Source: Tribonema minus
Lineage: Eukaryota > Sar > Xanthophyceae > Tribonematales > Tribonemataceae
Reading direction: 5' to 3'
DNA length: 64,000 nt
Assembly (NCBI GenBank): GCA_017506865.1
Contig: JAFCMP010000547.1
Coordinates: forward strand, 620,001-684,000
The translations under genes were made by a program, and so were the position numbers. Position 1 is the stretch's first letter. Each line of letters opens with the position of its first letter. The notes under the pieces are model-generated. The model was not told where the DNA came from. It made no database searches and saw only the letters and a program-made list of their open reading frames with translations. Shown piece after piece: positions 1,836-63,425 of the stretch.

Positions 1836-2115
1836 CCAAGGGCGATCGCACCAATTTGTTCGTGCATTCATTCCGCCTCTTTGCCCCCACGACAGGACGT
1901 GTATACAATCAAAATGGCCAGAACTGCTGTACCCCTTGAAATCAGGAATGGCCATTGCACCCCTCTCATGAACTGAAAACGCGCGTGCAGCCTCACTGTT
2001 GAAGTTGCCTAACCCTAAGCCCTTAGCCCTTGCTGTTCGCCAGGGGCGACCGCATCACGACCGAGGTGCTACAGAAGCGGTGGGTGCTGTGGCGGCACGA
2101 GGACCCCAATCGCAT
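1836..2115 (+). repeat. Ghost copies of the 5' edge of anoctamin exon 1 (visible)
   Basis: Two diverged upstream copies of the exon start at 2265. One runs 2044-2115 and reads GDRITTEVLQKRWVLW before diverging; an older one is at about 1840-1855. Each follows the same telomere-like CTAACCCTAA tract and a CAG/AAG acceptor. The shared flanking intron (for example 1950-2007 versus 2170-2231) shows that units of about 205-221 bp were duplicated, not just the exon. Confidence 0.85.
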
Positions 2116-2264
2116 CTGAGACTGCTCTTTTATGAAACTCAATTGGGGACAACTACCCCTTAAACTTCAGGAGCTGACCTCGCACCTCTCACGAGACTGA
2201 AACGCGTCGCCATCTCAATATTGAAGCTGTCTAACCCTAAACCCTAACCCTCGTTGTGTGTCAG

Positions 2265-5200
2265 GGGCGACCGCATCACGACCGAGGTGTTGCAGAAGCG
2301 CTGGGTGCTGTGGTGGCACGAGGACCCCGACCGCATCGGCGCGCCCATGGTGAGGATGACTCAGCAGGTTTCAAACTGCGGCAGCTGAGAACTCATGGAT
2401 CGCATGGCCCAAAGGTCGGGTCGCAGTCAGGCTTAGCGCCAGCCTGAGGATTAGGGTTAGCCGCGCAGAGGCCGCGTTGGCCGCGCTCATGGTGAGCACG
2501 TCTCATCAGTTTGAGAAGCTTGGCAGTTAGAAGCTCGCCGATCGGCATGTAGGTCCACCACGGCAGTCCACTGTGTGGCATGGCCCAGATGAGGTCTCGT
2601 TGCGCCCAGGCTGAGGCCGACTTCAACTGTTGAAGTTTTTTCTGCCGCCCTGCCCTCACTGTAGGTCACTATGGATGCGATGGACGAGGGCCGGCGCGTC
2701 TTGCACCCACCTTCTTGGTTTCATTACACCCCTGTTGACTGCAACTGCTGAAGTTTCATCGCCGCCGTGCCCTCTTTGTAGGTCACCATGGACGCGATGG
2801 ACGAGGGCCGACGCGAGTCTTGCCCTAACCTTTTTACTCTCGTTGCATGTCAACTTCAACAGTTGAAGTATCCTGGCCGCCCTGCCCTCTTTGTAAAGCA
2901 CCATGGACGCGATGGACGAGGGGCAGCACGTGTCTTGCCCCCACATATTGGTCTCATTACACCCCTGTCAACTTCAACTGCTGAAGTTTTTCTTGCCTCC
3001 TTGCCCTCCTCTCAGGTCACCATGGACGCGATGGACGAGGGCCAGCGCGTGTCGTGGTACATGCGGCCGTTCAGCCAGCCCCTGGACGACGTGCGCTGCT
3101 ACTTTGGCGAGAAACTCGCCATGTACTTTGCGTGGCTGGGGTGAGTCCGCTGAGCATTGAACGCGTGTTTGCGGCAACGCTCGACATAGCCGTTACAAGA
3201 CCGTTCCAGTTTTGGCGAGAAGCTCGCCATGTACTTTGCGTGGCTGGGGTGAGTCGGCGCGGGTCCGCTGACGCACTTGTTTGCAGCAGTGCTCGACGGA
3301 GCCGTTACAAAACCGTTTCAGCCGTCTGCTGCAGGGTGTTCCCTGCCGCTGCTCGGCCAGAAGTCGGCGGTGATATCCGCATGGCTATGGAGTGTCCGTA
3401 GAAGAATTATTGATGCTGATGGAGGTGGCTACGGCAGTGCTCAGCAGAGTTGCACAAGGCGGTGCGCCCCTGGTGGACTTGACACGCGCTATGAGGCACC
3501 TGAGAATAGTGTAGAGTGGTATAGTATATGCTGGTGCAGTGTACAACAGGGAAGCATACGCGTGTTGTGAGGCTCGTTGTTGTCTGTGCAGAACTAGGGT
3601 TTGCTGCAGCGCTTGGCAAGATGGCTCACTTGGCCGTTTCAGCCAGCGCTGGATGCTGCTTGTGTCAGGAGGCGGCAAAATTGCGCTGTGAGGGACCAGA
3701 CCAGGCTCAGCATCCCTCTTCTCTTTCCGCGGTGCGGTTACAGTAGTGCCACTGATGCCTTTTTTCTCGCTTCTTGTGTGTGTGTGTTTGTGTGTGCAAT
3801 GTGGCGCTGCAGGTCTGTAGAACTTCATGTAAAAGTAGTTGTTTCATGCAGTGAATGTGAGTGTGAAGTAGCTTACAGTCATGCATACGGACATCCCTCG
3901 GAATGTGCCCTGTTGCTGATACATCGGTTGACAGCAAGTCATGTGCCTAGTACGCTCCATCTGCATTGTAAATATGCCCCTGCTCTCACCACATATTGTC
4001 TCGTTGACGCGTCACACCTGCATCAAAACGGCATAAGTGTGAAGAAGTGATGTAGAGACACTATTTTTTCATCACCGGTGCTCAGCATTGTGAAGTTCCA
4101 CAACAAAAGCAAGTGCATGCTCTCACTTTAAAAACATCTTGTATCGCAACTGTCTTGCAGGTTTTACGGCTGGAGCCTCGCGTTTCCCGCCATTCTGTGC
4201 ATGGCGGCAGAAATTTACATGTGGTCACATGGCATCTCGTTCGGCTCCGAGCTTGACCCTGTGCAGGTAATGGCACAGCTCGCTTTGTGAATTACGCGCA
4301 AAAGCGGCGTTTTGTAGCATGTTGCTTGGCGCACTTGTCAGAGGTTCAACCCTCATTCCATTGACATATTCACCTGCTGACCACCTACCACTGGGTTGGG
4401 ATTAGAGCTAGGCTAGGCCTGCAGCTACATAGGTCATTGAGCCTTACTATTTTGCAAGTCGTAAATGATGAGTAGGTATTATTTGCATCTTCTTCTGATG
4501 TACTCTCAACGAAGCGCAGGTGTGAGGTTGAGTTGTTCAGTCCTGTAAATGTACTTGCTGTGCATAATTTTCTTGTAATTTTGTATATGAATTCTGCAAG
4601 TCATGTGAGCGCATTGCTGTGCATCTTAAAGTCCCTTCCGTGACTCAATATGAGGCACACAGTCTTCACCTTAATGGCGGTGGCAATAATCATAGCGGGT
4701 CCGTCTTTTCGAAGCTGTACATTGATGTAGGCAGACCTGCCCATCTCCTTAACTACTGTACTTCATAATCACATGAAGTCCACAATCTCGACGTGTGCTC
4801 TCAGATCGCTGTTGCGGCCATGATACTGACGTGGGGCGCTGTGTAGCAAGCGTTCTGGGACCGCATGGAGAAATTGCCCGGCACACATTTCGTAGTTGTT
4901 GCGCTCAAAGTTTGCCGCAACGCTGTCCGTTGAGCCGTGCCAAAAAAAAAGAAGAGCGTCCGGTGTGCACCACCCTCTGGTAAACTGACCTCACATAGAA
5001 CACCTGTCTCTTAGCTCTTTCTCTGCTAGCCTACCAGCTAGTACTCTGCTACGGCTGTGTGCCGAAGTAGTCTTGCTGGTTGGTGCCAAGCAAGGAACTG
5101 ATGCACATGCTGCTGCCTGTCCCAGGTCGACCTCCTCGCAAAAACTGCACACTCTTTAAGGCCTGTACCCTATTTTGCAACCATTTCCCTTAGATCGGTG

Positions 5201-8200
5201 TGGCAGCCATGATAGTGGTGTGGGGCGCAGTGTACCGAGAATTCTGGGAGCGCGAAGAGAAGGCGCGAGGCACACGCTTGGTAACCGTTTTGCGTTCAGA
5301 ATTCATGTGCTAACTAGCCGTGCAACAACTTTAACCGCCCAGCCTCCGTTGTGCTCCTCTCAATAACTGACCTCACATTAAACACTTGTTTTGCAACGCT
5401 TTTCCTCAGATCGGCGTGGCGGCCATGATAGTGGTGTGGGGCGCCGTGTACCAAGAATTCTGGGAGCGTGAGGAGAAGGCGGTGGCCGTCAAGTGGGGCA
5501 CGCGCGGGTTCGAGGAGAGCGAGAAGGACCGCCCGCAGTTTGAGGGGGACAGGTCAGTGCTCAGGCAGCAGCCATATTCTTATCGCGCTTCAGGTACTTC
5601 TTCTTGCCTCAAAGTCAAGTTCGAGGAGAGCAAGAAGGACCGCCCGCAGTTTGAGGGGGACAGGTCAGTGCTCAGCCAGTCTGTGCACTCTCAGTGGTCA
5701 CAATCAGATACTATTAACAGTGTATTATCTTCAGTTGAAGTACTGCATTCGAGGAGAGCGAGAAGGACCGCCCGCAGTTTGAGGGGGACAGGTCAGTGCT
5801 CAGCCACACTCTGTGCAATCTCAGTGGTCAGATTCAGAGACAAGTAGCAATGTAACATCTTCAGTTGAAGTACTGCGTGTGCTTCTTCAAGTTTCCTGCG
5901 CTTGCGACGAGGCCAGCTCCTAACCCTAATCCTAACCTTTACTCTTGGCGGAGTGGCGCTGCTCGTAGTTTGAGGGGGACAGGTGAGCGCTGAGGCAGCC
6001 AGTGCTCAGGAAGCGAGATCGGCCATCTCCTTCTCTGCACTTCAAGCACTTCTTCATGCCTCAATAGTGTGTCTAGTTTCTCTGAGGAGACAGGTCAGTG
6101 CTCCAATTCTCAGTGGTCTGAAGCAGATGAAGTGGGGTGGGGGGTGGGGGTCTCCATCATGATAATTGAAGTTCGACGAGAGCGAGAAGGACCGCCTGCA
6201 GTTTGAGGGAGACAGGTCAGCGCTCAACCAGACTGTGCACTCTCAGTGGTCAGATTCCTAGATACGTAGTTGCAGTATTGCGTTGAAGGAGTGCGAGAAG
6301 GACCGGCCGCAGTTTGAGGGGGACAGGTCAGCGCTCAGCCACTTCATGCAGTTTCAGTGGTCAGATTCAAAGAGAATTAACAACTTTCTATTTCCATAGT
6401 TGAAGTACTGCGTGTGCTTCTTCATGCTTCCTGCGCTTTCGGTGAAGCCAGCGCCTAACCCTCGCCCTAACCCCAATCTTAACCCTCGGCGGAGCGGCGC
6501 CGCCCGCAGTTTGAGGGGCATGGGGCAACGCTCAGGCAGACAGCGCTCGAGCAGAAAGAGCGGCCGTGTGCTCCTGTGTGCCTGAAGCACTTGATTTGCC
6601 GTGGCTTCGGTGATGGACGTCAACAAGGCCGCGGTGTGTGTGTGGGGGGGGGGCTGGGGTCAAGGCAGTGCTGAGGCAGCGCAATTGGCCAAATTCTGCT
6701 TCCCTGCACTCAATTTGTCCTCTTCTTGCCTCACAGAGACTGAGTCGATATTTAGTGGAGTTTCGCTGCTGCATGCAACGCGGGCACGTCAATGCTCAGC
6801 CGCTCGGTGGTCAAAGTCAGAGAATGTTTCTCTTTAAAGGTGTAGAGGCCAGCAGAGGCCAGCAGAAGTCGGCAGAGCGGCATCATCTTTTTTTTTGGGG
6901 GGGGGGGCAGCGCTCAGGCAGGTAGTGCTCAGGCAGAGAGAGCGGCCGTATTCCGAAAACTTCAAGAGGGTGCTCTCAGTTGTGGCTGTTGTTACATACA
7001 TAAAGGAGGAAGAAGCGACTGGCGCACAAAATATGTAAATACACGTATTCTGTCAAGTGCAGCCGCAAAACGGCAATGTCACTAGGTGGAGCGCCACGTT
7101 TTCAATTCCCATGTCCGTGATTTCCGGTGCATAGTGCTCAATGAGAATCTTTTGTTCAGCTGATAGCGAGACGGTTCGTAGTTTTCATGCACAGTGGCCG
7201 GAAGGGGGGATCTAGAGACAGACCCTATGCCTGGCCCCCTCATTTGGCGGTCAAAAACACACTTGGGCTATCTTCACACACGGAATAACGACAGGCATGT
7301 TGAGCCGTGCGATGGGTGTCAGTCTTACATGCCTGTCATACTGGAGCAAGGCCCCGAAACGAACACTCGCTTGGTGCTCTCGTGCAGGAGTACTCCGGGC
7401 GGCAGATGGTGGCCGAGCGCTGTCACCAACCCTTGCACACTGTGGTACCTCAAGTATTTGCATTACAGATGGACTCGAGAAGCAGTCATCTGCGCCTGGT
7501 CACGCCTCAGATTAGAGCTGCTAGAATGTGCCATTGCCGTTAGCGAGTCGACTTCCAAGCATCTTCGCCCTGGCTCGCTGTGGTATTTGCATTGCAGATG
7601 AAAGACTCGAGAGGCAGTCATCTGAGGCTGGTCACGGCTCACACCAGAGCTGATAGAAAGTTTCACAACCGTTAACGGGTCGACCTGAAAGCATATTTGC
7701 CCTGGCTCACATACAGGAGCGCGCCGGGCGGCGAACGGCGGCGGAGCGCTGTCACCAACACGTACGAGACCTACTTCCCGGAGGGCAAGCGGCGGACGCG
7801 GCAGGTGGGTGCGACAAACCCTACTCTTAACCTAACCCTAACCCTAACCTTATTTTAACCCTGCGGCAGGTGGGTGCCACAAACCCCACCCTTGAGCTTA
7901 TGCCTACCTATTGACCCTAACCCTCACCTAACCCTAATCTAACCCTAACCCTAATACGGCGCGCAGCGGGATTCCAGCAAACTCGTGCTCAGCGTTGAGA
8001 GGTATGCTGTGCAGCGGCAACCTCTTCCTCCGACTCCAGTGATTTCATGAGATTCATGAATCCCGATCATTGGGTCCGATTGATTTTCATGTGGCACAAG
8101 ACAGGAAACGGGAAGCGCATGCGCCTGGGTCAAGAGCAAGTGCACTGAATACAAACATGAAACAGAGAGCTTGTGTTTGCCATAATTGAGCTGCAAGATG

Positions 8201-11200
8201 CTCGTTCGCTGCACGCAAGCTGCATTTGACCGACATTGTGCACTTCAGTAATGTTGCCAGCACATGCTCACCTGCAGCTTGCCGGTTCTGGTTGAATTTG
8301 TGGCGAAAGCACATGTTTAGCTACAGGCCGGCTGAAGTTTCGGCTGTTGCGTATGATCCTCGGATCTCCATATCCAGACATACGAGCTGAGAAGCTGAGC
8401 TCACTTAAGGCTGGAAAGCTCTCGATGCTTTGAGCCAAACGTGTGCTTCCTTGATCAGTCAAAAATGACGCAACCAATAAACTACACGTCAAAGTACTTC
8501 CTGAACACCATTTCTGTGAAGCGTAATGCCGCTGATGCTTCATTCGCCCCGTACGCACCCCCCCCCCTCACAGGCACTGGGGCTTGCGGTGGTGAGCCCA
8601 GATGTGTGTACAATATGCAAAAGACGAAGCATCGTACACTTTTTTTGCGGTATTTTACAGCTACCATCCCTGTCACGTGCAGCACCGCCGCTGCTTCATC
8701 CCCTGTGCTTCCCCCCCCCCCCCCCCCCCCCCCCCTCCCCCTGTCCCCCCCCGACAGGCACTGGGGCTTGCAGTGGTGGTCTTCTTCATCGCCTGCCTCC
8801 TGGCACTGGTGCAATTCACCGAGTGGCTCGAGCACTACCTGCAGGACACTCGGGGGTACAGCTGGGGGGGCACCGCCGGATCCATCATAAGCTCCATACA
8901 GATACAAGTGCTCAGCTACTTCTACGGCAGCGCGGTGAGTAACACTTGAAGGTGCGGGCATAATTCGAGCGATTTCAGCTTTGAGTGAGGCGCTGTTGTG
9001 GCAGCAGCATGGCGAGTCGCGCCTGAGCTGAATGCAAGTGCTGAGCTACGTCTACGGCAGCATGGTGAGTCACGCTTCGAGTTGCTGGCATGTGCGACCC
9101 CCCCCCCCCCCCTCCTTTTTGGGGCTGGCAGGTCACAGTTGCGCTGTCAGGTCACAGGTTAGCGTGTGCGTGTGCGAGGGTCAAGGCTTGATTATTTTGC
9201 CTGCGGCTCACAAATTCTCAACTCTGACCCTAACCCTTCCTCTATGGCCTGCCATGACCTGCGCACCTGACCCTAAATTAACCCTAAACTGGTAAAACTT
9301 TACATTGGACCGAGTGCTCCAGGGGGCCCACGGCAGCAGCAGCAGGCCCTGAGGCCACATGTACTGCCAAGCATTGTGGTGCACTTGAACTTCACGTTTG
9401 AATTAAGCATAGGTGCATGAACTGTATGCTGCACTGTCGGGCCCTCGCATGATTCATGATCATGGTGTGGGGATCTGGCATACTTCAGTTGAAACCTCAA
9501 AATATCCTACGGTGCCGTTACCATTGCGCGTCTCTTGCGCCACGATTTACGGGAGCTCTCTGCTCAAGAGCACCATCGCTGTTTGTGAAAAGAAGGAAAT
9601 ATAGACTCTGCTTGTGGTCACTGTGTTGTCGCTCAGGGCAAGGTTCAATCCACCTGCAGCGGAATCTTTAGGCACAACATGCAGCCGTATACAACGTGAC
9701 AGTCACAACATTTGAAATATGTTGTACCTGCTGACCTCTTCTGGAGTCGCTGAGGTTCGATTGTTGTACTGACTTCACTGGCCCGTGCCTCCGCAACAGG
9801 TCACAACGCTCAACGACTACGAGAACTACCGCACGGAGACGGCGTACGAGCACAACCTCATCTTCAAGACCTTTCTATTCCAGATGTTCAACAACTACAG
9901 CGCGCTGTTCTATCAGGTGCAAACCTCGCCAACCTTCACCCTGTAAAACACATCAATTTCGAGTTGATGGGTGCCTTGCATGTGAACATCGTCGGTAGCG
10001 TGCGCTGGCACAGCATCTTTCAGTCCTGCGTCACCCATGTTGACGAGAATCGGCTGGACTCATCGCGCAAATCCGTGTCAGCATGCATTGGCGGCAGCGC
10101 TCAATGCCGGTGTGTGCTGTCTTACACCGTCCATGTTCACGAGGCCCAACCTCCACTCACTCATCGCACAAATTCGTGCCAGCTGACCCCCCCCTGCCCC
10201 CCCACCCCCCCTGCCCCCCCCCCCCCCCAAACTCATCTTTGCAGGCGTTCATTAGCGGCAGCGTGTATGGCTGTTCGCCGTCGTGCGTGAGCGAGGTGCG
10301 CGGCCTACTGGTGTCCATCTTCGTCGTGCGCTTCGCCATGGCGGGCGTGGAGCTCGTACGCCCATGGGCGCAGTCTTTTCTCACGGTGAGAGGTGGCGGG
10401 GGGGTCGGTTGTTCAGTTCAGAAAGCTGAAATATAAACTTTGAGATGGTTCTGCTGGTGTCCATCTATGTGGCGTTTTGCCATGGCGGGTGTGGAGCTCG
10501 TACGCCCAAGGGCGCAGTCCTTTCTTACGGTGAGAGGCGGTAGTGTGTTTGTTCCGCTCGTAGTTTTGAAGTTGTACGTGTAGTATTTCAAAGGGCCCAG
10601 CCCTTTTGCACGGTGAGAGACGGTGGTGGGGGTAATCTACTAGTTGCTTTGCCATGATGGGCGTGGAGCTCCTGCGCCATGGTGAGCAGTGTTGACGGAT
10701 TGCTTGTTGTGTGCCAAGTCTTCCTTCAAATTGAGAGGGGTCGACATTATTGAGTTGTACTCCAATGTTTTGTACTGGGTAAGGCGCTTGGAGTCGAGGT
10801 GCACCTCCTAGGCCCCAAATGCGTTCTGGACTCAAGTCAATGCGTGATGGTTGTCTTTGCTTATTGTACTCTGAACATGCATCCCTCCTGGCGTCGGGAA
10901 GATGTCGTCCACTTTGAAGTACTTCAACAGGTGACTCTCAGGAACTTCAAAGCACCTCCTCTTTGCCACATGCACCATGGCTGCTGCTTTTTGTCACCGT
11001 TCCTTGCGCTGTATTGAGGTTTTCTACGCTGACCCTAACCCTAACCCTAACCCTCTGCGCAGGCACGCGCGGCTACCAAGCGTAAAGCGCAGCAGGAGGA
11101 GGAGGCCAGCCTCCTCGGCGACACGACCGCCAGTCAGGTGAGAGCAATGCCTCGATCACCCACTTACGGTGCCGTGGAATCTTGGTTCAAATTTGTTTAT

Positions 11201-14200
11201 TGCGGCCTGGCTTTGCCAATATCGGTGTGGAGTTGGGGATAATTACTGAGCCTGCGAGTACAACATCACGAACCTCGGAATTGCGTGATACCAAATTTGC
11301 ATAGTGTGTGCCTCTACTCTGCTGCAGGACGCTTGGTGCAGTAGCGTCATCAATAAGCAACTTGGCCATAAGCCGCTACGTTGATCCGCAAAACACAACT
11401 ACCGTAAATCACGGGGTATAAGGCAGTGCCTCTGTATAAGAAATGGGTATCTTATACGGCGTATAAGATACCCGTTTCTTAGAACATTTTGATAGGCATG
11501 TATGTAAGATACTAGGTTTGCTGTAAAAGAAACTCCCTTTCTTACACACGGCATTTGGAACTCTTGCGTGTAAAAAAGGGGGTTCCTTACGCGACAGTAC
11601 AAGAAACCCCGTACCTTGTGCAGCAAGCAAGGCAACTTGCAAATTGTAGCGAAGCACTAACAACAGGCATGCAGTAGGCAGTACATGAGCCTCTGAGCTT
11701 GGCAGGCCCCTCGCTTGCGCTTAGCAGAATGCTGTGGTGGTAGCGTTCATCTGATTCACCATCGCTGGTGGCGCTGCTGCTGCTGCTGCTGCTGCTGCTG
11801 CCGCTAAACCGGCTAAACCAGCTGCACTACCACCAGCGGCATTCATTTCAGCCGTACTACGCTCAAGGCCCCCCAAAACCGGTTGTGACGCACGCGCATC
11901 GCCGTGTAAGATACCTGTTTCTTATAGCATGTTGACAGTTGTGTATGTAAGATACTAGGTTTGCTGTATAAGATACTCCCTTTCTTATACGCCGTATAAG
12001 AAACCCGTATCTAAGAGGGCCAAACAGCTGGCGTTGTTAAGGAACGGGTATCTTATAACCCGTGATTTACGGTACGTCGCGGGTGTAGCTACTAGTTGCC
12101 TCATCTTGCTTGGTGCTGAAGAAGTACTTTACATCTGGGTTTTAAGGAAGCGCCTTGACGTGGTGTGCTGATGGCCTTGCGTCCTGCTTCAAGTGTGTAG
12201 TACGCCACCGTGAGCTGGTGTAGTGGTGCCCCTTGGGCCTTGCTTCTCGCTCATTTGGACTCAACAGTGCAGGACGAGAAGCCGCTTTGCATTGCTCACC
12301 ACCTCTTTCAGTTCTGCGTGTATACCAATCGACCAGTGTGAGAGCAGACCGTTGCTCACTCTGCTTGTCTCGAAAAAAAAAAAAAAAATTTGCTATATCA
12401 TGGAGACTGCTGAAGTCCTTACACTTTCTGCCGCTGCGGCAGGAGGAGGAGCCGTTTGAGCCCGTTTGTCGCTCTCCGTGCAAATCTCCTTATTTTGTAA
12501 TGTTTGACTCCCCACACTTCCTGCTGCTGCGGCAGGACGAGGAGCCTAATGAGCCCGCTGTCACTCTCCGATCGAACAGCGCTATGTTGTGACATGTTGA
12601 CTCCCTTCTTTGTGTTGCTGCGGCAGGAGGAGGAGCCGTTTGAGGCCGAGGTGCACCTCCCCGCGTACGATGGCACGTTTGACGACTTTGCCGCCATCGT
12701 GCTGCAGTACGGCTACGTGACCATGTTCGTCTCGGCGCTGCCGCTGATCGTGCCCCTGGCCATGCTCGAAGTGCTCCTACAGGTCCGTCTCTTGTGCCCA
12801 GAGGCTCTGATATCATGTAGTATTCGAAGTGGTGTGTAGTCCAGTCATGGCTACATGATCATGTTCGTCTCGGCGCTGCCGCTCATCGTGCCCCTGGCCG
12901 TGCTCGAGGTGCTCCTGCAGGTGCGTATCTCGTGCTTGGGGGGTGTCATCATGACACTGCCACCTGTACCTGAGCTGCTAATGTTGTCTCGGTGCTGCCG
13001 CTCATCGTGCCGCTGGCCATGCTCGAGGTGCTCCTGCAGGTGCGTGCATCTCTCGGGCTCGGTGGTCGTGATATCAAGTAATCACATACTCGCAGTACAT
13101 GCATCGATGCACCTAATGTCAGAGTGAACGGCACACTAGGGCGTTCATATGTACAGAGTACTGCCACCTGTACCCTGAGCTGCCCAAGTGCCCTGGGCCA
13201 TGTCTGCTTGAGAGATGCGCTCGCTACATGGCAGCAGCACCATCCGGCGACTCTGCGGCCTTTGCGTGATGCACATTCATCGCAGATTCCCTACATGGAA
13301 GTTCCACCGGCCATGCTGAACCGCATCCGCACGTATCCTGCTCTCATGCTATAGTTCGAGGTCGGTCCGGGCATGACTTGAAGTGTGCCTGTGAACACGT
13401 GCCAAGCCCTGGCGACACTGCGGCCGTTGTGTTGCGCTCTGGACCCGTGCCTTCGTCACCTCTGCTCCCCTCTGACCTAGGGTGAGGGCCAGGGATGAGG
13501 GTTGGCGCTAGGGTTGGCCCTCTGCCGCCGACCGCTCATCATTCACCTAGGGTTTAGGGTTAGGGGTGAGGACTAGGGTTCGAGGCGCGCTCCTGCGTGT
13601 GATGTTCGCTGTCACACTTGGCTCGCAGGCCGTGCAGATGCGCGGCGTCAGCGCAGCTGTTGTCGTTTTGAGACTATGTGCACCGCGCTGCAGAGCGCTT
13701 CACGACCGTCTGGTTATAATAAATAAAATATAATTTATAAAGATTATTTCAGGTCTGACAAGAGAAAAATATATTCAATAATTTCAAATGAATACAAGTA
13801 TACAAAATACAAAGTCGGCGCTGCCGCCCAGCCCGCCGCTGATCGTTATCGAGTCAGCGTGTGCTGTCATTCGTTCCAGGGGCTTACACCATGAGCACTG
13901 TGCTGCAGCATGCAGCGTTGCTCGCAGTGCCAGTACAACTATAAGGTATAGGGAAGTATGTGCTGTAATCAGTTGCATAGGGATAGGACGATGTTGTGAT
14001 CTTGTGGCTAGCTGCCCCAGAAGGGGGTTTTGGTTTGTGGGACCATACGCATGCAACTAGAAGAGGACGGGCGCTTGCGGCCCAGTGTGTCCGGTTCTTA
14101 TTAAGCAATGGGGGCAGACACAGTGGCACCCAATCTGAGCCTTACCTATTGCAGTTGATGCGTGAATGTACCCAGGTGCGTCAGCCATCCGATGTTTATC

Positions 14201-44814: not shown

Positions 44815-45030
44815 CCCAGTGGATTTCCATGAAAAGTCCCGAGATGCCATTTGGCGGCGGCGCCGTTTGAGTGGTTGTCGTTGAGACACGTTCAAAAGTC
44901 ACACGACACACAGATTCCGTACAGCAGCATCAATTTAGACCATCATCTGGGCTTTTTCGCGCCCTGAGCGAGAATTAATAAAAAGTACAAATGCGCCCTG
45001 AGTGAGAATTCATAGAAAGTGCAAACGCGC
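44815..45030 (+). mobile_element. 3'-end fragment of LINE-like element
   Basis: Matches the end of the element at 45357-46005 (GATGCCATTTGGCGGCGGCG ... ATCTGGGCTTTTTCGCGCCC ... GAGCGAGAATTAATA). The last ~38 bases (CGCCCTGAGYGAGAATT...) are then tandemly duplicated. No usable coding frame remains. Confidence 0.65.
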
Positions 45031-45344: not shown

Positions 45345-46005
45345 GGGAGTCGCAGGATGGACATCGTGCTGCCTGCCGACGCCTTCCCGGTGACCGGCTA
45401 CGACAACCCGACACGTCAACTACCGCTCATGGTGGAAGTCACCTGCTTCGAGGCACAGGTGGCGTCCGGGCGCAGAAGACTGCAGCGTTCCGAGCGTTGC
45501 TGCCGCGACCAAGAGGCCGCCAAAAGTACCCACTGTTCTGGTCATGATGATCAGAATTGCTACAAACTTGCCACTTTGGCAATCGGGTCACTCGGCAGCA
45601 TCGGGGAGCAGGGGCGGAAACTGCTGGAGGCTGTGGCGACGGAGTATGCCAGCACTGGCAGGATGTCAGTGCCCGAAGGAGTGCGCCCTAAAGCTCTTAA
45701 GGGCATCGCCCTAGCGCGCTTACACTCGGCACTGTCAGCAGCGCTTCACATGGCGTACTCTGGTCGTGTCATGACACACATATGGCAGAATCCAGGGGGG
45801 GGGGGCACATGGCGGAGGACATAGGCCCTGGGGAGGATCCCGAGACTCTCGGATGCCATTTGGCGGCGGCGGCGTTTGAGTGGTTGTCGTTGAGACGCTT
45901 TCAGAAGTCACACGACATGCAGATTCCGTTCAGCAGAATCACGTTAGACCAATCATCTGGGCTTTTTCGCGCCCTGAGCGAGAATCATAATTAATAAGTA
46001 CTCAT
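45345..46005 (+). pseudogene. 5'-truncated LINE-like retroelement: C-terminal end of polymerase frame
   Basis: An open frame from 45357 reads RMDIVLPA...RQLPLMVEVT...YKLATLAIGSLGSIGEQGRK, ...RPKALKGIALARLHSALSAA. This pattern (aspartate-bearing 'DIVLP', then 'L-x-L-x-V-T', then 'x-x-x-PLAx-x-x-x-G-x-x-G-x-x-x-x-x-LL') resembles the C-terminal end of reverse-transcriptase proteins of non-LTR elements. A ten-G run at about 45797-45806 shifts the frame; the second frame continues to ALSENHN and a stop at 45994. The 3' tail is AT-rich (TAATTAATAAG). Three other copies of only the 3' end in this window fit 5' truncation. The family call is my reading and uncertain; the upstream polymerase core is absent. 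Confidence 0.5.
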
Positions 46006-53800: not shown

Positions 53801-54524
53801 TCATTTGTTTGCACACGATCAGGGCTAAGGTTAGGGTACTACTACAGATAAGGGTTAAGGGTAGGATAACTGGCAAGGGCAGTGTTAGGATTAGAGTTTG
53901 GTCAGTGCACCTGGGCCGCACTGGCAGGATCAATGCCATCATAATGGAGACAAATCGAAAGATCGTAGAGCTCTTCTAGGTGACAAGGAGAGTCGTTCTG
54001 ATCGATACTCTCATGAGCGCACTTGGAGTGGCTCAGGCTGAGTCAACTTCAAATTGTTTGCACAACCACTTTCTAGGTTCAACAGTGAATGCAGCGCTTG
54101 GTGTACAGCACCATTTGATGTGCACGTTGTGGGGGCGATCCCAATGTTCAAATTGATGCAAGGGAGTATACTTCAAGGCAAGTCCTTGATCAGGGAGCTG
54201 CATGCTGCTATCATAATCGCCATTGAAAACAGCGGCTGCATTCATTTGTCTCATTAGTCCCATGAGTGCTGCTAAATTGGAAGGGCAAGGCCTTTACGCA
54301 CAAGCGTGCAGTATCACTATCTGTTACAGCAGCTGCCTGAGGGCATTGCAGATCGCGACCCGCATTGCGGCGTGCAGTAACTTCACAATTGTGCAGATGA
54401 AACGCGAAGAACCCCAGACCGGTGCCTGCTTATCATTCTGTCGTCAAACGCTACATAAAATCACCGCTTAGTGTGCCCAACGGGAGGTTCAACGAAGGGT
54501 GGGCTTGATTTGCGTCAGAGTCAT
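50851..54524. other. Intergenic, partly AT-rich, no gene recognised
   Basis: Only short unsupported open frames. AT-rich patches lie at about 52060-52150 and 52490-52545. A degenerate telomere-like (TTAGGG/AGGGTTA) stretch lies at 53820-53900. A 45-bp segment at 53941-53990 resembles 36693-36735 in intron 7 of the Zn2Cys6 gene. The first exon of the downstream paralogue may lie here but cannot be identified. Confidence 0.45.
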
Positions 54525-54650
54525 GTACTTTTTATTAATTCTCGCTCAGGGCGCGAGACAGCCCAGATGATTGTCTAACTTGATGCTGCTGTACGGAATC
54601 TGCATGTCGTGTGACTTTTGAAAGTGTCTCAACGACAACCACTCAAAGTC
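54525..54650 (-). mobile_element. 3'-end fragment of LINE-like element, inverted
   Basis: Reverse complement of the 45853-46005 end: TATTAATTCTCGCTCAGGGC ... ACGGAATCTGCATGTCGTGT ... TCAACGACAACCACTCAAA. The 3' tail (poly-A-like AAAAAGTAC in sense) lies at the left edge. It sits just upstream of the first visible exon of the Zn2Cys6 paralogue. Confidence 0.75.
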
Positions 54651-54775: not shown

Positions 54776-54892
54776 GCGCAAGCCCCGCTGACGGGGGGGT
54801 ACACCCGCCTCTCACGCACTTCAAATTTGAAGTATAATTCCAAATGCCAAACATGGCCCCTGCGCCGCCGCTGTGTGCTCTTGTGCGCGCAG

Positions 54893-57800
54893 GAGCGTGT
54901 GCAATCTCTGCGTGAAGCGCAAGCGCAGGTGTCTCGGCAACGGGACGGACCCGTGCCCCCTCTGCGTCTCCAAGGGCACGCCGTGCGTGTACGGTCCGGT
55001 GAGTGAGTGTGTGAGTCATCGAGAGAGTATTTTGAATGCAAGTATGCTCTGCGTCTTCAAGGGCACGCCGTGCGTGTACGTGTCTGGTGAGCGAGTGAGT
55101 GTGTCATAGAGTGAGTACTTTAGACGCAAGTACATTACCCGTGCCCGCTCTGCGTCTCCAAGGGCACGCTGTGCGAGTACGGTCCGGTGAGTGAGTGAGT
55201 GAGTGAGTGAGTCGTAGAGTGAGCACCTTGAATACAAGTAGGTATATTCAACGTAGCCGAAATGGGGCACTTTCAACTGTACCAAAAAGGTACACATGAA
55301 CGCTGACATTCCTTTTGGACCAGGCAGCCAGTTGCGTCTCGTGCACCGCTTCCTCGCAGACAGTTGCGCCAGGGCACTGCGCCCACATTGGGTCTCAAGA
55401 GTTGTGCAGAGTGCGTACAGGAGCGTGCGTGCGTCAATGAATGGGAGAGGGCAGGTGAGCAAGGGAGTGAGTCAGCAATTCCATGAGTGCCTTCCTATTC
55501 AGTTTCTTTGCATCCAAGTTGATGCATCGAAGACTACTTTTACATGCGCCGCATGAGTGGGGAGTCACCAGCGGAAGCAGTACCCGAACCTCAACATCAT
55601 TGATCTGACCTATTGCTGTGACTGCTCTATGCATTGCAGGCAAATGCATATAGCTGTGGAGGCATGGTGTGATGCGAGTGAATCAGCGGAGGCGGACAGG
55701 CTCTGAGCCTCCCAATGATTGCATGCGTCTGTGATGCGGTGTTGAACCTCAAGTTCAGGTAGTCGCATGGGGTGCAGAAGCGCACTTCTGATTGCAGGAC
55801 AGTTCGGCAGACGCTTTTTGTTGCTGTTTCCTGCGTGGGGCGTAACAGAAATTCCTTCTATGACGTTGTTGCTGTTGTTGTCCTGCGCGGGCGTTAACGG
55901 AAACTCCTTGTATGACAGGCGAACTTAATGTGTGCGTGCTGAGCCATGCTGCTGCTTGCGGCTGCAGCATGTGTACTGTCACCTCGCTTTCAATCACTTC
56001 TTTTTCTGGGTCAGGAAAGTGCACAAGCAAACGGTACAGTACAATTGGTGTTTTGCCACACTGGTGTGAATGGACAAAGCCCTGGTTCTGTACACAGCCA
56101 TAGCCTGCGGACATCGACTGTCTCAACTACAACATACCACCATACATGCGTTCACCAACTTCAAGTTGCACTCAGACACATTGCACAGGTGCGCCTGACG
56201 CCACCGTGCGTGGCAGCGAACTTGAGAGTGTGCTTTGTCTGCACATATGAACACACCCCTCCCATGCCGCTGAAAGTACACCCAAATGATGAGCCCATCT
56301 GGGTACTCTGCTGGAGGCGTGCAAAGTACTAGAGATGCCAGCAGCACTGCTTTGACGCTTTTGTTACATGCAACACACTCACAGACACCATCTGTAGCAC
56401 CAGAGCACACATTTCATTCATACCCGCATACCGCATTTCTGCGTGCAGCTAAACACGGGTAGGTATGTATCATTTGTAACGCGGTTAAGCGCATCGGCAG
56501 CGCTCAACCCAGCCTTTATGCCTACCCCGCAACTCAACGCTGCAGCACCGCTCGCTCGCCTCCGTACCGCCGCCGCGCAGCTCGTCAAGCGTGGTCGGAA
56601 GCCAAAGCATCAGCGCGCCCGCGCGCGCGCCGCCGCCGCCGCCGCCGCTGCCGCCGCCGCCGCCACCCCTGCCGCCGCCGCCGCTGCTGCTGCCGCCGCC
56701 GCTGCTGCTGGCAACCAGGGGTCGTACTCGCCGTCGCTCGACAGCGGCTCCGACGCAAATGACTCTATGGATGACTCAGAGTCGGAGTCCGCAAGGTGGT
56801 CGGGCGACACTGCCGCGCCGAACAGACATCAGGCAAGCCCTGCGCAGCACGTGCAGCCAGCCGTGCAGGGCAGCAGCGGCGGCAGCGGCGGCGGCAGCGG
56901 CGGCGCCTTACAACCCCACTTCACGGGGCGAAGCGAGAGGGGTGACGGGCGGGGTTACAGCGGCAGCGGCAGCGGCGGCCGCGGCGGCGGCAGCGGTGGC
57001 GGCGGTGGCGGCGGCGGCGGCGGTGGCGGCAGCGGCAGTGGCGGTGGCAGCGACGGCGGCGACGGCAGCTGCAGAGCTGTGGTAACTGCGTCGCCAGAGC
57101 GGCAATTGCTGAGCCCGTCTATCGCCACAGGGATGCTGGGGCTGCAGGAGAACAAGTACCTGTTCATGTACATGTCCACATTTGCAGGTGAGCGCGCGCG
57201 CGCGGTGCTTGCCGCCACTCTGCGTGCGCGCGCGCGTAATGCGGTTGCTGATCCGTACGGCGTCCATGGCTCTCGTGTGCGCACTGCGCTCGTTGCTGAA
57301 TGGGAAGACTCGACAGAGAGTGTTCTGTTTCTCAAAGCAGCTTTTGAAGTGGAGTGACCGATACTCGGGCATCGTCATCCAGAGCTACTCCACATGGGCG
57401 AAGTGCCGCTGCTCCCCCCCCCCCACCTCCCCCTCTCCCCACCCCTCCATCACCTTCAAGTAGACGTCAAGCACAGCCCATCGCTGCACTACGCGCGCGC
57501 GCACGCGACGCGCTCACCCATTCGCGCCCCCCGCGCCGCCGCCGCCGCCTCGGCACCGCCACCGCAGGCGTGCCGTGCGTCGCGGAGTCCGATTTGCAGC
57601 GCTCAGTTGTTGAGCTCATGGGCCCACGCGCCGCCACCGGCAGCAGCGCCGCCGCCGCCGCCGCTGCCGCGCCCGACAGGGCGGCCGCCGACGCGGCGAA
57701 CCGCTGCACGTTGTGGACGGGCATCGCCAACGGAGCGCTGCTGCTCGGCGCGCCCGAGCACGTGTACGGTAGGTACATGGAGCGCGGCATGCGCGAGCTG

Positions 57801-60752
57801 CGCGGCGGCGCGGCGGCGGCGGCGGCGACGGCGGAGACGCTGCGCGCGCACATCCTCGCCGCCAACACGTTCGCGATGCTGGAGGACACTGCGAGGTACG
57901 TGTGGCTGTGCACAGACGCGGCCGCGCCGCTGCGGTCGCGCTAGTGCGCGTGCGCCATATGCTAGCGCGCCGCGGTGGTTCCTTGCTGCAGCGCGCCGGG
58001 CCGGCTCTCTCTGCCGCGGCATGCGCGTGCGCTGCTGACGCGCGTCTGCTGGCTCTGTTCCACGCACGTGACCATCGAAGCACCATATGATGGTCTGGGG
58101 GCTTTGCACTGAAAGGATGCAATGTTGAAGTTGAAGTTTGAGGTCTAAACAGTGATCCAGATGCAGCAGTGCGGACAAGCCCTCTCTGTCGCAAGTTCTT
58201 GTCAGGCAAGCCTTGCACATAAGGAAGCTCTACACACATGCACGCGTTCATGCCCAGTCAGCACCAGCGCGGTGTCAGCATGCTGATGCAAGCCCGATGC
58301 ATGTCGTTTCTAATTTCTACCCTAACCCTTATCGTCACCCCTGACCCTAACCCCAACCCGTCTTGCCGCGCCTGGTCACCTTGCAAACCACTCAGCTGCA
58401 GTTCATGCCAGCACCCCTATGGACGATGCACTCCTCAAGAAGTATTGCTTCACGAACAATGTACTTGACCATTGGCCATCACCGTACGCCAATACCGTCG
58501 CTGCTGCTCACAAATTTGATTGGATGACGGGTGTACTCCTAACCTTAACCTAACCCTAACCCTAAGCCTAAGCCTAATTCTTGGATGACGGTTGTCAGTG
58601 CAGGTTCAACGCGCATCTGGCCATGGCGGAGAGGGTCGCGCGTGCGATGGCGCGCGCGCATCAGCAGAGCACTGCCTCTGCTGCCGCAGCAGCAGCAGCG
58701 AGCAGCGCGGCAGCGACGGCGCAGCAGAGCCCGCCGCTGAACGAGGACCTGTGGTATCTGATGGAGGGCCTGCTCCAATTCAGGAGCATGCTCGACTCCA
58801 CAACGACGTCGCATACCACTGCAGCAGCGCTCGACACGGCCGATCGGGACCCCCCCGACGATCACGCGAGGTGCGCTTGACATGTCGCACATACACCAGA
58901 GTACATACCATATATGGCTGCTTTAGTTCATGCTCACGTGAAGCAGTGTTTCGGGGCACGGCAGTGCGCTGCTCTCAAACATGTCGTATGCCCCCAAGAT
59001 GGCCAACAAGATGTCGTACACCACCACAGCAGTGCTCGACGCCGCCGACCGCGACCCCCCCCCACAGTCACGCGAGGCGTGGCGTCGCTTGCTGTCACAC
59101 GACATGTAGGTTCCGTACAGCGAGCTTCAAGCTAGATGCCATTCATCTGGGCTTTTTCATGCTCTGAGCGAGAATTTTGAAATACCTCATTCGTGATCAT
59201 TCAGACTACTTCAAAAACGTCATGTACTTTGATTTACATGAGACACTTGAGGCATTATATAAAAAGTACATGTCATATACTTTGGAAGTATATAGCTACT
59301 TGAGCTCATGTCGTTCGCGTTGAGCAGTATTTGGGAGTGCCCCCGAACATACGACATACTGATCTGCTCGCAGCACGTCGGTTTGCGTGAGTCAGTGTTT
59401 GGTGATAACCCTAACCCTAATCCTAACCCTAGCTCTCACACATCTCGGACGCCCCCGGATGGAGATGCCCCCCGCAATTCTTCGACCCCTGTTGTGCTGC
59501 GCAGCGCAAGAGCGCGCAGAGTGCGTAGTGTAATGTGGCAGGTGCAACGCCGCGCTCATGAGAAGAAAATCCACGATCACTGCTTCGCATTGGATGTGAA
59601 AACACATGAGCGTCCACCGTCCATCGTTGCCGCTGGGCCGCGCTGCGGGTGCGGCGTCGCGTCATGCCATGTTTGGCTGCAACATGTGCACGGCGGCCCG
59701 CTTTTGCACTGCGCGGCGCGGCGCGCTGTTGTGCTGAGTTTGCCGAACACGGGGCAGGAAAGTCATGATCATTGCTGCGGCCTGCTGCGGCATGCACACA
59801 TCACAGTTGTGCGCCTGCACATTCATGACAGCAGTCATACGGCTGACCGCTAGTGTATAAAGGTGTGATATACTTATATGTCGTGTTTGCTGAGCCGTGC
59901 AGCAGGTGCGACATCATGTCTGTGGGCCACCCTGTGGACGACGAGCCGTTTTCACCCATTGTGGGCTACATGCCTATCATACGGGTACGTTCTCTCAAAC
60001 TTCAAGTGCACTTGTTCATTCATTCGCGCTCAGCGCGCAAAAATCGGATGTACTCATGTGTGTGCTTGCATGTACTTCAGGTGTACTTGTTCATTGATTC
60101 TTGCTCAGGGCGGAGAAAACGGACGCACTCGTGTGTACTTCGGGTGTACTTGCATGTACTTGAGGTGTACCAAAAGAGCGATGGTACATGTACATTGTCC
60201 AGGCATGGATTCACTTTATGATGCAGTTGAGCAGGCTTGCTCCAGCCGCCTGGCTGACTGGCGTTGCCGTGTGCGCAATGGTGCTCTGGTCTTGTCTTAC
60301 CTAGCAGAGATTGAATGCCTAGCGACCACACACTCGCCTTCCCCTCTTTCTGTGTCCCCTTGCTGGTTCCTGGTTGTCGACCCCAATTTTGTACACCAAA
60401 TTTGCCAAACACCTGCTGAACTTTGTTGCGTGTTTGGCGTGGGTTGATGGCCATCAAATTAAAACCGCACTCACCTGTGTGCGTTCACGTGCATGCACTT
60501 CATGTGTACCGGTATACGACACCAGACCTCAAGGAATTGTTTATGACCTATTCGTCAAAGTTCACGTTTCTGTTGTGAAGTTTGTGGTGCAACTGTGTAG
60601 CGGTTCAGCACGTGCGCGCCGCCGTTGCGCGATCATGCAGTAGTATGTTGACAACTCGTGGGTCGTGGACGACGGACAGCAAAGCCCTGTGCGAACAGGC
60701 ATCACGTCTATCAACCTGGGAGCGTGTTTGCGATCTTGTGTAAGCCTGCTGC

Positions 60753-60786
<34 letters not shown>

Positions 60787-63425
60787 GCTGCTGCTGCCGC
60801 TGCTGCTGCCGCTGCTGCTGCTACTGCTGCTGCTGCCGCCGCCGCTGCTGCTGCTGATGCGTTTGTCATGCAGGGGCTGCCGACATACAGCGCGGAAAGG
60901 GTGCAGGCGCTGGTCACAGAGGAGGGCTATCTCAGCGAGCAGCAGGTGGGCGGCGCAAACTTCAACTCTGTTCACACTTCAACTCTGTTGAATCAACCTC
61001 AACTCTGTTGCGACAGCACGCACATCTCACCATCAGCGGGAGCGCGTTAGGGTTGAGACTAGGGTCAGGATCAGGGTTGAGAGTAGGTGGACTCTAGTTC
61101 TATCTCTGGGGCAGTGCTCACAGCTTCAGACATGATCTGATGCGAGAACTCACCGGCAGCGGGGAGGGGTGCGTTGCGACAATTACCGCCCCAAGTCGCA
61201 CGCGGTTCGGCGCCCGTGCCCATAACCTAGCCTGCTTCACCCGCTCAGTAATCCATGTTCAAGTTACACTTGCATTTTGAGATACTTCGAGGGCGTGCTC
61301 TACAGCTTGTTGAGGCCGTCTGCGTTTAGAGATGCGCTGAGGGCGCGCTTTGCAGCCGGTACCGACGCGAAACGTGCCTACTACCTCCCCCATTTCGTGA
61401 CAAGTGCTGCCGCTCTCTCCCTCTCCCGCTTGATGCATGCTGCACACGGCAAGGCAAGCCTACAAAGCTTCCAACGTATACACAAGCAACCAATACAGAA
61501 TGCTACAAGTCCCCCCCCCCCCCCAGGGTACAACCCACACACAAGCATTCGAAACAGAACGCTACAGCTACAGCCCCCCCCCCCCCTTCCCACTCTCGCG
61601 CATGTGTGCGCAGGCTCTTCAATTTGCGCGTCACAACATTGTTGCGTCAGCCCTCACGCAGCTCGCGCAGCCGCACGCGCAGGGCGTGGAGGGCCTAGTG
61701 AGCGCTGCCACGTGGGGCCTCACGCGCCTGCTGCAGATGACCATGTCCCTGGAGCACCGATGCGTGCAGGTGAGAGCGACTACAGGACGCATGAAACTCA
61801 TCAACTTGCACCTCACAAGGCAAGACATGAGAAACATTGCCACTGGTCGCAGGGCTGTGATGAAGGACTCTGACTCTGACTCCTGGCCTGGTGAGCGCTG
61901 CCACTTGAGGCCTCACGTGCCTGCTGCAGATGACCATGTCCCTCGAGCACCACTGCGTTCAGGTGAGGGTGCCTAGGTACAAGCCCCATAAAACTCATCA
62001 ACTTGCACGTCATATGGCAAGATGTGAGAATGTCTGCCTGTGGCCGCAGCGCTGTGATGTAAGACTCTGACTCTGACTCCCGCCCTGGTGAGCGCTGCCA
62101 CGTGGGGCCTCACGCGCCTCCTGCAGATGACCATGTCCCTTGAGCACCGCTGCGTTCAGGCGAGGGTGGCTACTGTACCAGCCCCACTGAATGCATCAGC
62201 TTGAATCTCACAAGGCGAAGTGTGGAAACATTCTGCCGCTGGCCATCGCGCTGTGATGTAAGACTCAGTCTGACTCCTGGCCTGGTGAGCGCTGCCATGC
62301 ACGGCCTCACTTGCGTCCTGCAGATGACTGCATCTGTGAAGCAGTGCTGCGTTCAAGAGCGCCTCGCTGCCAACCTCGCAAAACGACAGGTTGATTTGCG
62401 CTCGTAACGGTACCTCACAAGGCGAGTTTCTGATCGGTGATACCTGCCCTTGGTCAAGGTGTTGATCAGAGACTTTGACTCAGTAGGTACTGTAGTGTTG
62501 TCATCACCGCCCCTTGCTCAGAGTTACGGTAAGACCCTCCTGCGCGACAAAGGCATCCCTGCCCGCAGCTCACGTAATTGGTGCAACCACAACCCTGGGG
62601 GTACAGAGCGGCGAGTCACCTGCGTGCCGCCCCCATCTCAACCTCAACTTTGCTGCCTCTGTCGACTTCAACTCTGTCCGCAGCTGATGCAACCGGTGCT
62701 GGAGGACGTGCCGCTCGCGCGCATGCCGCCCCCCATCTCAACCGCCTTTGTCAATTTCAACTCTGTCCGCAGCTGATGCAACTGGTGCTGGTGGACGTGC
62801 CATCCGCTCGCGCGGTCAGCGCGCAGCTGCTCGACCTGGTCGACTTTAACTTCACCTCGATGAATCTCAACTTAAACCTACCTTTGTCAACTTCAACTCT
62901 TTCCGCAGCTGATGCAACTGGTGCTGGAGGACGTGCCGCTCGCGCGCATGCCGCCCCCCATCTCAACCTCATTGCCTTTGTCAACTTCAACTATTTTACA
63001 ACTTAAACTCTGTCCGCAGCTACTGCAACTGGTGCTGGTGGACGTGCCATCGGCGCGCGCCGTTGACGCGCAGCTGCACGTTGTGGTTGACTTCAACTTC
63101 TCCCTGATGAATTTCAACTTGAACTTGCCTTTGACAACTTCGACTCTATCCGCAGCTGATGCAACCCTTGCTGGTGGACGTGCCATCCGCGCGCAGCACC
63201 CCACGTCAACCTCAACTTTGCTGCTGTCAACTTCAACTCTGTCCGCAGCTGATGCAACTGGTGCTGGTGGACGTGCCATCAGCGCGCACCGTTGGCGCGC
63301 AGCTGCTCGTCTTGGTGGACCGCATCATGGGCGCGCTCGGCAGGGACTTCTTTAGGCGCCCCGGCTTCAGCCAGATGCAGCTCGCGACGCAGGCTGCCTT
63401 TTTGAAGTTGCTAGCGGGCGACGAG
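54893..63425 (+). CDS. Zn2Cys6 transcription factor, paralogue of the gene at 30388 (partial at both ends)
   Basis: Exons: 54893-54998, 56581-57187, 57568-57895, 58604-58870, 59906-59984, 60874-60945, 61614-61769, 63249-63425. Phases agree throughout. The zinc cluster lies wholly in the first visible exon with the same spacing as the other gene: C-x2-C-x6-C-x7-C-x2-C-x6-C (CNLCVKRKRRC...CPLC...C). The basic linker is KRGRKPKHQR, then Ala- and Gly-repeat stretches, then the helical middle region. Matching blocks: NEDLWYLMEG versus DEDVGFMLEG, GLPTYSAERVQ versus GLPTYRAEDIQ, RHNIVASALTQLAQPH in both, PGFSQ...QAAFLKLLAGDE versus PGFNN...EAAFLRILGGNE. The start exon and everything after 63425 are missing. 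The last junction would be a GC donor (GAG|GCGAGT), as at 33412; otherwise the frame stops 11 codons later. No match to the next exon of the other gene is seen up to 64000. Confidence 0.86.
55040..55225 (+). repeat. Two ghost donor edges of exon 54893-54998
   Basis: CTCTGCGTCTYCAAGGGCACGC...GTGTACG... recurs with junctions near 55086 and 55186, each followed by GTGAGTGAGTG-type tracts expanded to (GAGT)n in the last copy. Confidence 0.93.
55226..56580. other. Intron of Zn2Cys6 paralogue
   Basis: A short tandem (TTGTTGCTGTTGTTGTCCTGCG-like, ~65 bp apart) lies at about 55815-55900. No exon is supported. The acceptor of exon 56581 has a weak C/T-rich tract. Confidence 0.5.
58310..58600 (+). repeat. 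Telomere-like tracts before exon 58604-58870
   Basis: CTAACCCTTATCGTCACCCCTGACCCTAACCCC at 58320-58355 (in pieces) and TAACCTAACCCTAACCCTAA at 58545-58565, ending ~40 bp before the acceptor CAG at 58601-58603. The CTAAC units match a branch-point consensus. Confidence 0.75.
59020..59180 (+). mobile_element. Ghost donor edge of exon 58604-58870 next to a LINE-like 3' end
   Basis: 59027-59076 copies the exon end (CAGYGCTCGACRC.GCCGA..G.GACCCCCC...CACGCGAG) but with donor GCGTGG. From 59085 to 59180 follows a diverged copy of the LINE-like 3' end (TCACACGACATGTAGGTTCC ... ATCTGGGCTTTTTCATGCTC). Telomere-like CTAACCCTAAT units are at 59405-59435. Confidence 0.7.
59985..60135. repeat. Short tandem intron repeats resembling the LINE-like tail inverted
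   Basis: Two ~80-bp units (CTTGTTCATTCATTCGCGCTCAGCG and CTTGTTCATTGATTCTTGCTCAGGG) with AGGTGTACTTG motifs follow the donor at 59984. Confidence 0.5.
60745..60860 (+). repeat. (GCT)n triplet tract just before an acceptor
   Basis: About 110 bp of GCTGCTGCC-type triplets end ~14 bp before the acceptor CAG at 60871-60873 of exon 60874-60945. The tract is open in the exon's frame as poly-Ala, so use of an upstream acceptor would add alanines. The paralogous intron lacks it. Confidence 0.85.
61268..61362 (+). other. Possible extra exon or ghost, not supported by phase
   Basis: One frame reads YFEGVLYSLLRPSAFRDALRARFAA before a GTACCG donor-like site. It looks protein-like, but it does not fit phase 0 on both sides and has no counterpart in the gene at 30388. 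I leave it out of the gene model. Confidence 0.3.
61880..62370 (+). repeat. Three ghost donor edges of exon 61614-61769, ~195-bp units
   Basis: Copies of GTGAGCGCTGCCACGTGGGGCCTCACG...GAGCACCRCTGCGTTCAG end near 61962 (donor GTGAGG), 62159 (donor mutated to GCGAGG) and 62356 (no donor). The flank AAACTCATCAACTTGCACST...GGCAAGAYRTGAGAA and TGTGATGTAAGACTCTGACT is repeated with them. Confidence 0.94.
62680..63235 (+). repeat. Five ghost acceptor edges of exon 63249-63425 in a higher-order array
   Basis: Copies start at 62684, 62773, 62909, 63020 and 63156, each after CTNTNTCCGCAG. Copies 1 and 3 share one variant (GCTGGAGGACGTGCCGCTCG, then CGCATGCCGCC). Copies 2 and 4 share another that follows the real exon further (GTGGACGTGCCATC...GCGCAGCTG). 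Copy 5 is short. Spacings are 89, 136, 111, 136, 93 bp. Confidence 0.95.

Follow-up and report, generated by a model that had tools for sequence, protein, structure and literature searches.

Partial copies of exon ends and splice sites in the introns of Tribonema minus genes

Intron lengthening is usually attributed to transposons and small insertions. Whether introns can also grow by copying parts of the gene that they interrupt is the question raised by a 64,000-nt stretch of the Tribonema minus genome (contig JAFCMP010000547.1, C544:620001-684000; hereafter ‘the window’; assembly of 158.18 Mb in 554 contigs). For three genes here, an anoctamin gene and two paralogs termed B and C, a preliminary description had reported about 27 exon edges of which diverged copies occur in the neighbouring intron. 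We call such a copy—an exon end plus its splice site inside the adjoining intron—a ‘ghost’, and followed the pattern in the anoctamin gene, in the paralogs, in kinase loci elsewhere in the genome and in a wider region of 264 kb that includes the window.

Exon edges and their copies in the adjoining introns

Gene 1 encodes an anoctamin (PF04547), the closest protein being P0001 with 60% identity; named ochrophyte matches are those to Aureococcus (41% identity over 44% of the query) and to a partial Laminaria record (57% over 28%). Its exons E1-E16 were located by tblastn with P0001 and P0002 and then by splice consensus; all 16 have GT-AG edges and join into an open protein. By eye, an additional exon lies upstream of the window (donor at about -3220), accompanied by two donor ghosts.

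Comparing a 100-bp window at each internal edge with its own intron, and calling it significant at z > 5 and above the best shuffle, returned 18 of 30 edges, 16 of which involved matches spanning the edge. Interior intron windows were also positive (108/255), partly since these windows are ghosts themselves. As this control is unable to tell ghosts from intron-only copies, we turned to a stricter count in which overlapping self-hits were merged into families, each scored as edge-containing or intron-only. Of the 18 families so defined, 15 contain an edge and 3 do not, placing diverged copies in the adjoining intron at 15 of the 30 internal edges. The description of introns holding local, direct arrays of their own junctions is thereby borne out, with some 24 edges documented in the window against the ‘about 27’ first described: the 15 anoctamin families, two more at E1 and about seven in genes B and C.

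Duplicated sequence accounts for 4778 of 15518 intron bases (31%) and 711 of 2002 exon bases in the anoctamin gene. The exonic part falls into 15 stretches within 10 of the 16 exons. Each stretch has an exon edge as one of its ends, none lies in an exon interior, and no single stretch runs the full length of an exon (0/16). In every family with modelled edges, exon 3′ ends are copied on the downstream side and 5′ ends on the upstream side, as previously noted, and the only inverted exception named was recovered as well. This side rule is, however, forced for any mRNA-neutral tandem duplication, since the copy still attached to the remaining exon is the one that counts, by definition, as the exon. 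The copies lengthen introns with no change of mRNA needed, and intron length correlates with the amount of duplicated sequence across the 15 anoctamin introns (Spearman 0.66, p 0.007), a relation partly built in, as longer introns hold more. Just two introns are shorter than 350 bp, and both are ghost-free.

The pattern extends beyond the three genes. Ten kinase loci were chosen for a split or partial kinase match, blind to repeats, and the eight with usable edges were counted within the span from first to last modelled exon, leaving duplicates beyond it uncounted (for example at L030, L033, L036, L037 and L038). They yielded 14 families with exon sequence and one without. Three of the 14 touch an exon while the edge lies outside the blast interval; when aligned, these have a shared acceptor AG (L035) or decayed donors (L037, L038). 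No families occur at three loci whose introns measure 218-340 bp. Two loci were left out of the count since their edges are unclear: L032, whose ~1.5-kb intron holds no duplicates, and L034, where a single duplicated stretch (3016-3273) lies clear of all modelled exons and would bring the count to 14 to 2. Among L039-L042, L039 was used as a paralog of L038 and the others were scanned for exons only. Anoctamin and kinase genes combined gave 29 edge-touching and 4 intron-only families. Across the 264 kb, pairs within 1.5 kb are direct in 407 cases and inverted in 10, and local direct pairs make up 20% of bases (0 to 47% per 8 kb).

The best explanation, to which we assign a probability of about 0.55, is local duplication of ~100-200 bp, filtered by selection against exon change and followed by decay. 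Many such tandem duplications would have arisen across the genome. Those inside an exon or over a whole one would alter the protein and be lost; those inside an intron or straddling a single edge would leave the mRNA unchanged if the outermost splice site is used, and could persist. A straddling event would leave a copy of the exon end and splice site in the intron, and this ghost could mutate freely while selection holds the exon copy, so that an edge pair should be identifiable for roughly double the time of an intron-only pair. Within an array, further duplication and exchange would then multiply and shuffle the ghosts. The introns were probably short when the duplications occurred, and the process was probably stronger in the past.

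Decay and age of the copies

The copies are local, direct and edge-reaching, and their decay is near-neutral. Taking an intron flank as recognisable at z > 3.94 (random 44-mers align at 69%), 20 of 37 exon–ghost pairs with known edges retain one. In these, the exon side differs at 55 of 584 positions (9%) and the intron side at 156 of 804 (19%), a ratio of about 1:2 that fits one-sided neutral decay of tandem copies. The same 20 pairs speak against copies that never had flanks.

A second measure comes from the kinase paralogs L038 and L039, whose introns are collinear save for an insertion in L039. The exon-derived part of their shared donor ghost differs at 11 of 94 positions and three intron stretches at 82 of 680 (hand sum), with 21/284 in exon 0, 6/75 in exon 1, 15/103 in the remaining intron pieces and 11/122 in two acceptor ghosts. 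At this one locus, the donor ghost has diverged at the intron rate. Overall, the copies look nearly neutral.

Copies range from identical to ~70% alike. Among young pairs, defined by at least 93% identity in the 264 kb (n = 85), three abut, 34 share one flank, 11 share both and 37 share neither; by eye, many comprise an exon end of 40-75 bp together with a splice site. A splice-signal scan of the young pairs was uninformative, as 1342 of 1640 random segments also passed. The rarity of abutting young duplicates (3/85) points to a past pulse or a falling rate. The earlier description of a process both old and continuing is therefore supported only by half, near-identical copies alone being no proof that it continues. 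Steady duplication as the sole regime, at the faster rates simulated, is disfavoured by an abutting share of 0.14-0.44 in the simulations versus 3/81 in the real data. A pulse-and-ageing run (start 220 bp, fast growth, age 0.15) produced 8.2 young pairs per gene, with 0-2% abutting and 67-71% touching an exon; the real anoctamin gene has 8 young pairs, of which none abuts and 6 touch an exon.

Junction preference, conversion and other explanations

Are junctions a preferred target of duplication? In our simulations, exons were frozen, competing ghost sites cost-free and a single gene architecture was used; a run was scored as a match with at least 13 edge and at most 4 intron-only families, looser than the real 15 and 3. 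An untargeted null in which all growth from 220-290 bp came by duplication gave a mean edge share of 0.44-0.87 and too many pairs (57-230 hits in ageing runs versus 38 in reality). When duplication came first, the mean edge share was 0.56-0.85 and 44 of 360 runs matched, 42 of them from starting introns of 180-220 bp (26/120 at 180 bp, 16/120 at 220 bp, 2/120 at 290 bp). A 3-fold junction preference raised the matches to 149/360 and a 6-fold preference to 209/360. A 3-6 fold preference thus fits more easily than none, and the strength of any preference ranges from nil to several-fold according to how long the introns were when duplicated. Accordingly, for junction duplication as a mode of intron growth, the edge-reaching copies hold, whereas the junction as target does not follow, since unbiased runs also match. 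An excess of edge copies over random tandem duplication likewise holds if introns grew in parallel by other means and is less clear if duplication came first.

Several observations weigh against local duplication filtered by selection. Untargeted runs with other insertions alongside had a mean edge share of only 0.30-0.57, and none of 360 attained the observed count; the real ratios of edge to intron-only families, 15:3 in the anoctamin gene and 14:1 in the kinases, lie above most untargeted runs. Five measured ghost-free introns are 218-340 bp long, versus the 180-220 bp starts that the simulations favour, and the ageing setting that best reproduces the young pairs gives 113-137 hits, too many against the real 38. 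In the other 17 of the 37 exon–ghost pairs, which lost, or never had, their flank, the intron side is at chance (203/652) and the exon side no older (46/531), and 44% of the young pairs (37/85) have no match in either flank. Two of the E4 ghosts agree with the exon at 56/56 and 56/57 positions beside a flank that is unlike the exon’s and common to four ghosts, for which the plain tandem model has no explanation. Between ghosts, exon-derived parts agree at 704/799 positions and intron-derived parts at 819/1109, where strict neutrality predicts otherwise, though ghosts were found by likeness to exons. Finally, exon–ghost differences by codon position (34/471, 28/470 and 71/461) are highest at the third.

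The excess of edge families would follow if breaks, nicks or template switches were commoner at exon edges, for example through transcription- or splicing-linked structures or the step in base composition, such that edges are duplicated several times more than interiors. We regard such a bias as possible, if doubtful. It is favoured by the 29 to 4 family count, by the higher match rates of the 3- and 6-fold runs and by genes B and C, which carry separate ghosts at a homologous edge (the B ghost is 96-97% like the B exon, the B and C exons 77% alike). It is less needed, however, if introns measured ~180-220 bp at duplication; families occur at just half of the anoctamin edges while nearly a third of intron bases are duplicated; edge pairs should stay visible about twice as long; and the kinase count omits L034. 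The pairs lacking a matching flank and the E4 ghosts suggest copying from the exon, that is, gene conversion or unequal exchange that refreshes the ghosts and makes the arrays concerted families of exon ends, as would the greater likeness of exon-derived parts among ghosts. To this we can commit only tentatively: in the E4 block duplication, exon parts (84/94) and flanks (104/127; three pairs, hand sum) are close to each other, the L038/L039 donor ghost has diverged at the intron rate, and ageing simulations of plain tandem duplication, with no conversion, reach 21-48% of young pairs with neither flank matching (0-13% abutting), rendering the copying of exon ends alone less needed. That both operate—junctions preferred for duplication, ghosts overwritten by conversion, and introns growing mainly outward from their splice sites with a reserve of near-identical spare junctions—appears a little less probable again.

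Selection for ghosts as alternative or decoy splice sites is improbable. GT or AG is kept at 32 of 37 ghost sites (donors 20/22, acceptors 12/15) and third codon positions differ most; yet by our arithmetic this retention is near that expected of 6-12% neutral decay, so that ghost sites give no clear indication of being either favoured or removed by selection, with AG lost in 3/15 acceptors and GT in 2/22 donors, and first and second positions do change (62/941). The codon-position result is ambiguous, as silent exon change can produce a third-position excess and mild ghost constraint could too. Selection on ghosts as the main cause is disfavoured by the intron-rate decay at the single L038/L039 locus. 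Least probable of all are a mobile, introner-like element and an assembly artefact. We searched six ghost-bearing stretches (E4, E10, gene C, L038, L036 and L033) against the whole genome. Short interspersed motifs (TTGAAGTA, TTAGGG) are common, and the sequence beside the ghosts of L036 (beside the exon 1 donor and after exon 2; 2610-2724, 4242-4595) and L033 (after exon 2) matches many genome places, some at contig ends, so that some of these introns do owe part of their sequence to dispersed repeats. Against an element stand the E4 array and the E10 region, which match their own locus only and for which one dispersed element was rejected as source, and the gene C stretch, whose six other matches all lie over the exon end. 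The L038 region (C312:1016099-1017699) has four essentially identical copies, on C312, on C455 (twice, on opposite strands) and at C544:1830448, L039 being a further copy at 81-87%. Against an artefact stand the spread of copies from identical to ~70% alike and their sharing between paralogs, which an assembler does not invent.

Related systems, feature positions and surroundings

Tandem duplication is a known source of new introns (PMC4974935, PMC3443670). In that form of intron gain (PMC3443670), a duplicated exonic AGGT segment becomes a new intron, or an intron-exon unit is added; as here, one copy is spliced out and the mRNA is unchanged. In T. minus, by contrast, partial exon copies are added to introns already present, at edges already present, and this has happened repeatedly and across many genes. 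Unlike the intron gain of Rogers and Hellsten, where an exonic segment supplies both new splice sites, all 15 anoctamin exonic stretches reach an existing edge, and unlike whole-exon duplication leading to mutually exclusive exons, no anoctamin exon lies wholly inside one stretch. Human repair-mediated duplication by capture of proximal DNA (824 duplications, 4 with partial exon/intron donors; PMC2671141) similarly gives short local copies, some with exon-intron boundaries. Those are rare and on average 1.2 kb apart, copies at most 50 bp apart having been removed, whereas ours are densely packed, lie for the most part within 50-600 bp and are almost all direct. In Drosophila, intron positions that arise anew by sliding or exon tandem duplication (PMC2891723) likewise involve coding sequence duplicated around splice sites, one copy of which becomes intronic, but concern new positions and not the growth of existing introns. 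Direct repeats also occur at intron borders (PMC11782384), where they are 4-30 bp long and read as insertion footprints; ours are one-edge copies of 35-110 bp or longer. Introners (PMC9860276), described as self-copying elements that spread into many genes, likewise change introns genome-wide, but the E4 and E10 arrays are locus-specific. No report in which junction duplication figures as a general means of lengthening introns was found in the open literature searched.

The arrays offer a visible and datable record of intron growth by copying of a gene’s own sequence, in which exon edges serve as internal clocks, one copy being held and the other free. They make preferential duplication at splice junctions directly testable, warn gene finders of decoy exon edges and supply material from which new splice sites, new exons and shifted introns can be formed.

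Table 1. Positions of exon edges, their ghosts and related features in the window (edge positions in brackets)
Feature	Range	Strand	Remark
E1 (2265-2349), acceptor ghost (2043)	2042-2349	+	weaker ghost near 1839
E2 (3016-3140), three acceptor + exon 5′ end ghosts before exon (2664, 2781, 2897)	2619-3140	+	
E2 3′ end + donor (3140), one ghost (3248)	3103-3321	+	
E4 (5410-5552), two acceptor ghosts (4804, 5193)	4800-5552	+	
E4 3′ end + donor (5552), six ghosts (5663, 5791, 5982, 6215, 6326, 6523)	5508-6949	+	
E4 array block duplication, 5617-6051 / 6169-6592	within 5508-6949	+	
E5 (7717-7804), acceptor ghost (7387)	7376-7804	+	
Intron-only pair, 7454-7576 / 7583-7708	within 7376-7804	+	upstream of E5
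E6 (8758-8934), acceptor ghost (8573), donor ghost (9064)	8561-9091	+	
Intron 7	9917-10244	+	328 bp, ghost-free
E8 (10245-10385), donor ghost (10529)	10305-10540	+	
E10 (12627-12782), acceptor ghosts (12442, 12535), donor ghosts (12920, 13039)	12421-13080	+	
E12 (15234-15392), acceptor ghost (15092), donor ghost (15735)	15022-15851	+	weaker acceptor ghost 14941 outside range
E13 (16785-16909), two acceptor ghosts (16451, 16670)	16417-16909	+	
Intron 13	16910-17204	+	295 bp, ghost-free
E14 (17205-17339), donor ghosts (17524, 17925, 18044)	17297-18108	+	
E15 (18611-18752), donor ghosts (18909, 19059)	18712-19183	+	
Gene B acceptor + exon 5′ end (GCAG/GATAAC, ~33172), ghost upstream	32966-33267	+	94%; edge by eye
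Inverted pair, 33514-33596 / 34070-34152	33514-34152	.	94%
Gene B exon 3′ end (37677), donor ghost (37803)	37600-37813	+	97%; flanks unrelated
Gene B donor-type pairs, 40092-40144 / 40247-40299 and 40728-40778 / 40838-40888	40092-40888	+	edges by eye
Gene C Zn-cluster exon 3′ end + donor ghost	54949-55204	+	94%; edge by eye
Gene C exon 3′ end (61769, homologous to 37677), three donor ghosts, two spanning edge	61692-62364	+	
Gene C acceptor-type array (CCGCAG/CTGATGCAAC...)	62622-63320	+	edge by eye

Genes B and C are paralogs, gene B having a Zn(2)-Cys(6) (Zn-cluster) hit; the clear ghosts at about seven of their edges were all read by eye save those at the shared exon end. The run of paralogous Zn-cluster genes spans 31.4k-42.8k and 54.9k-63.9k and continues just past the window (64149-64356), where a donor pair (64149/64294) resembles that at 40092/40247, suggesting that ghosts may have arisen at homologous edges on more than one separate occasion.

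Short telomere-type repeats in interstitial positions (8-mers of TTAGGG/CCCTAA) exceed the first-order expectation 38-105 fold in the window and the 264 kb, for example at 2233, 5922, 7834, 11037 and 17401, in or just before modelled anoctamin introns. The 8-mers around TTGAAGTA/TACTTCAA and ACTTCAAC/GTTGAAGT are enriched 20-36 fold on both strands (for example at 2620, 2853, 5733, 6398 and 62666), and some adjoin ghosts and acceptors. In the 264 kb, one stretch free of local duplicates holds an open reading frame of 1782 residues (L027:315-5660) that includes a reverse transcriptase domain (PF00078, E 2e-10). Within the window, 26482-27868 may be globin-like by resemblance, with no Pfam hit for 26482-27018. 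A dispersed element of ~80-150 bp occurs in both orientations (44843-44989, 45852-46001, 54524-54647 and 59094-59176), and 46369-49361 forms a large imperfect inverted repeat, possibly a foldback element, with arms 85-87% identical.

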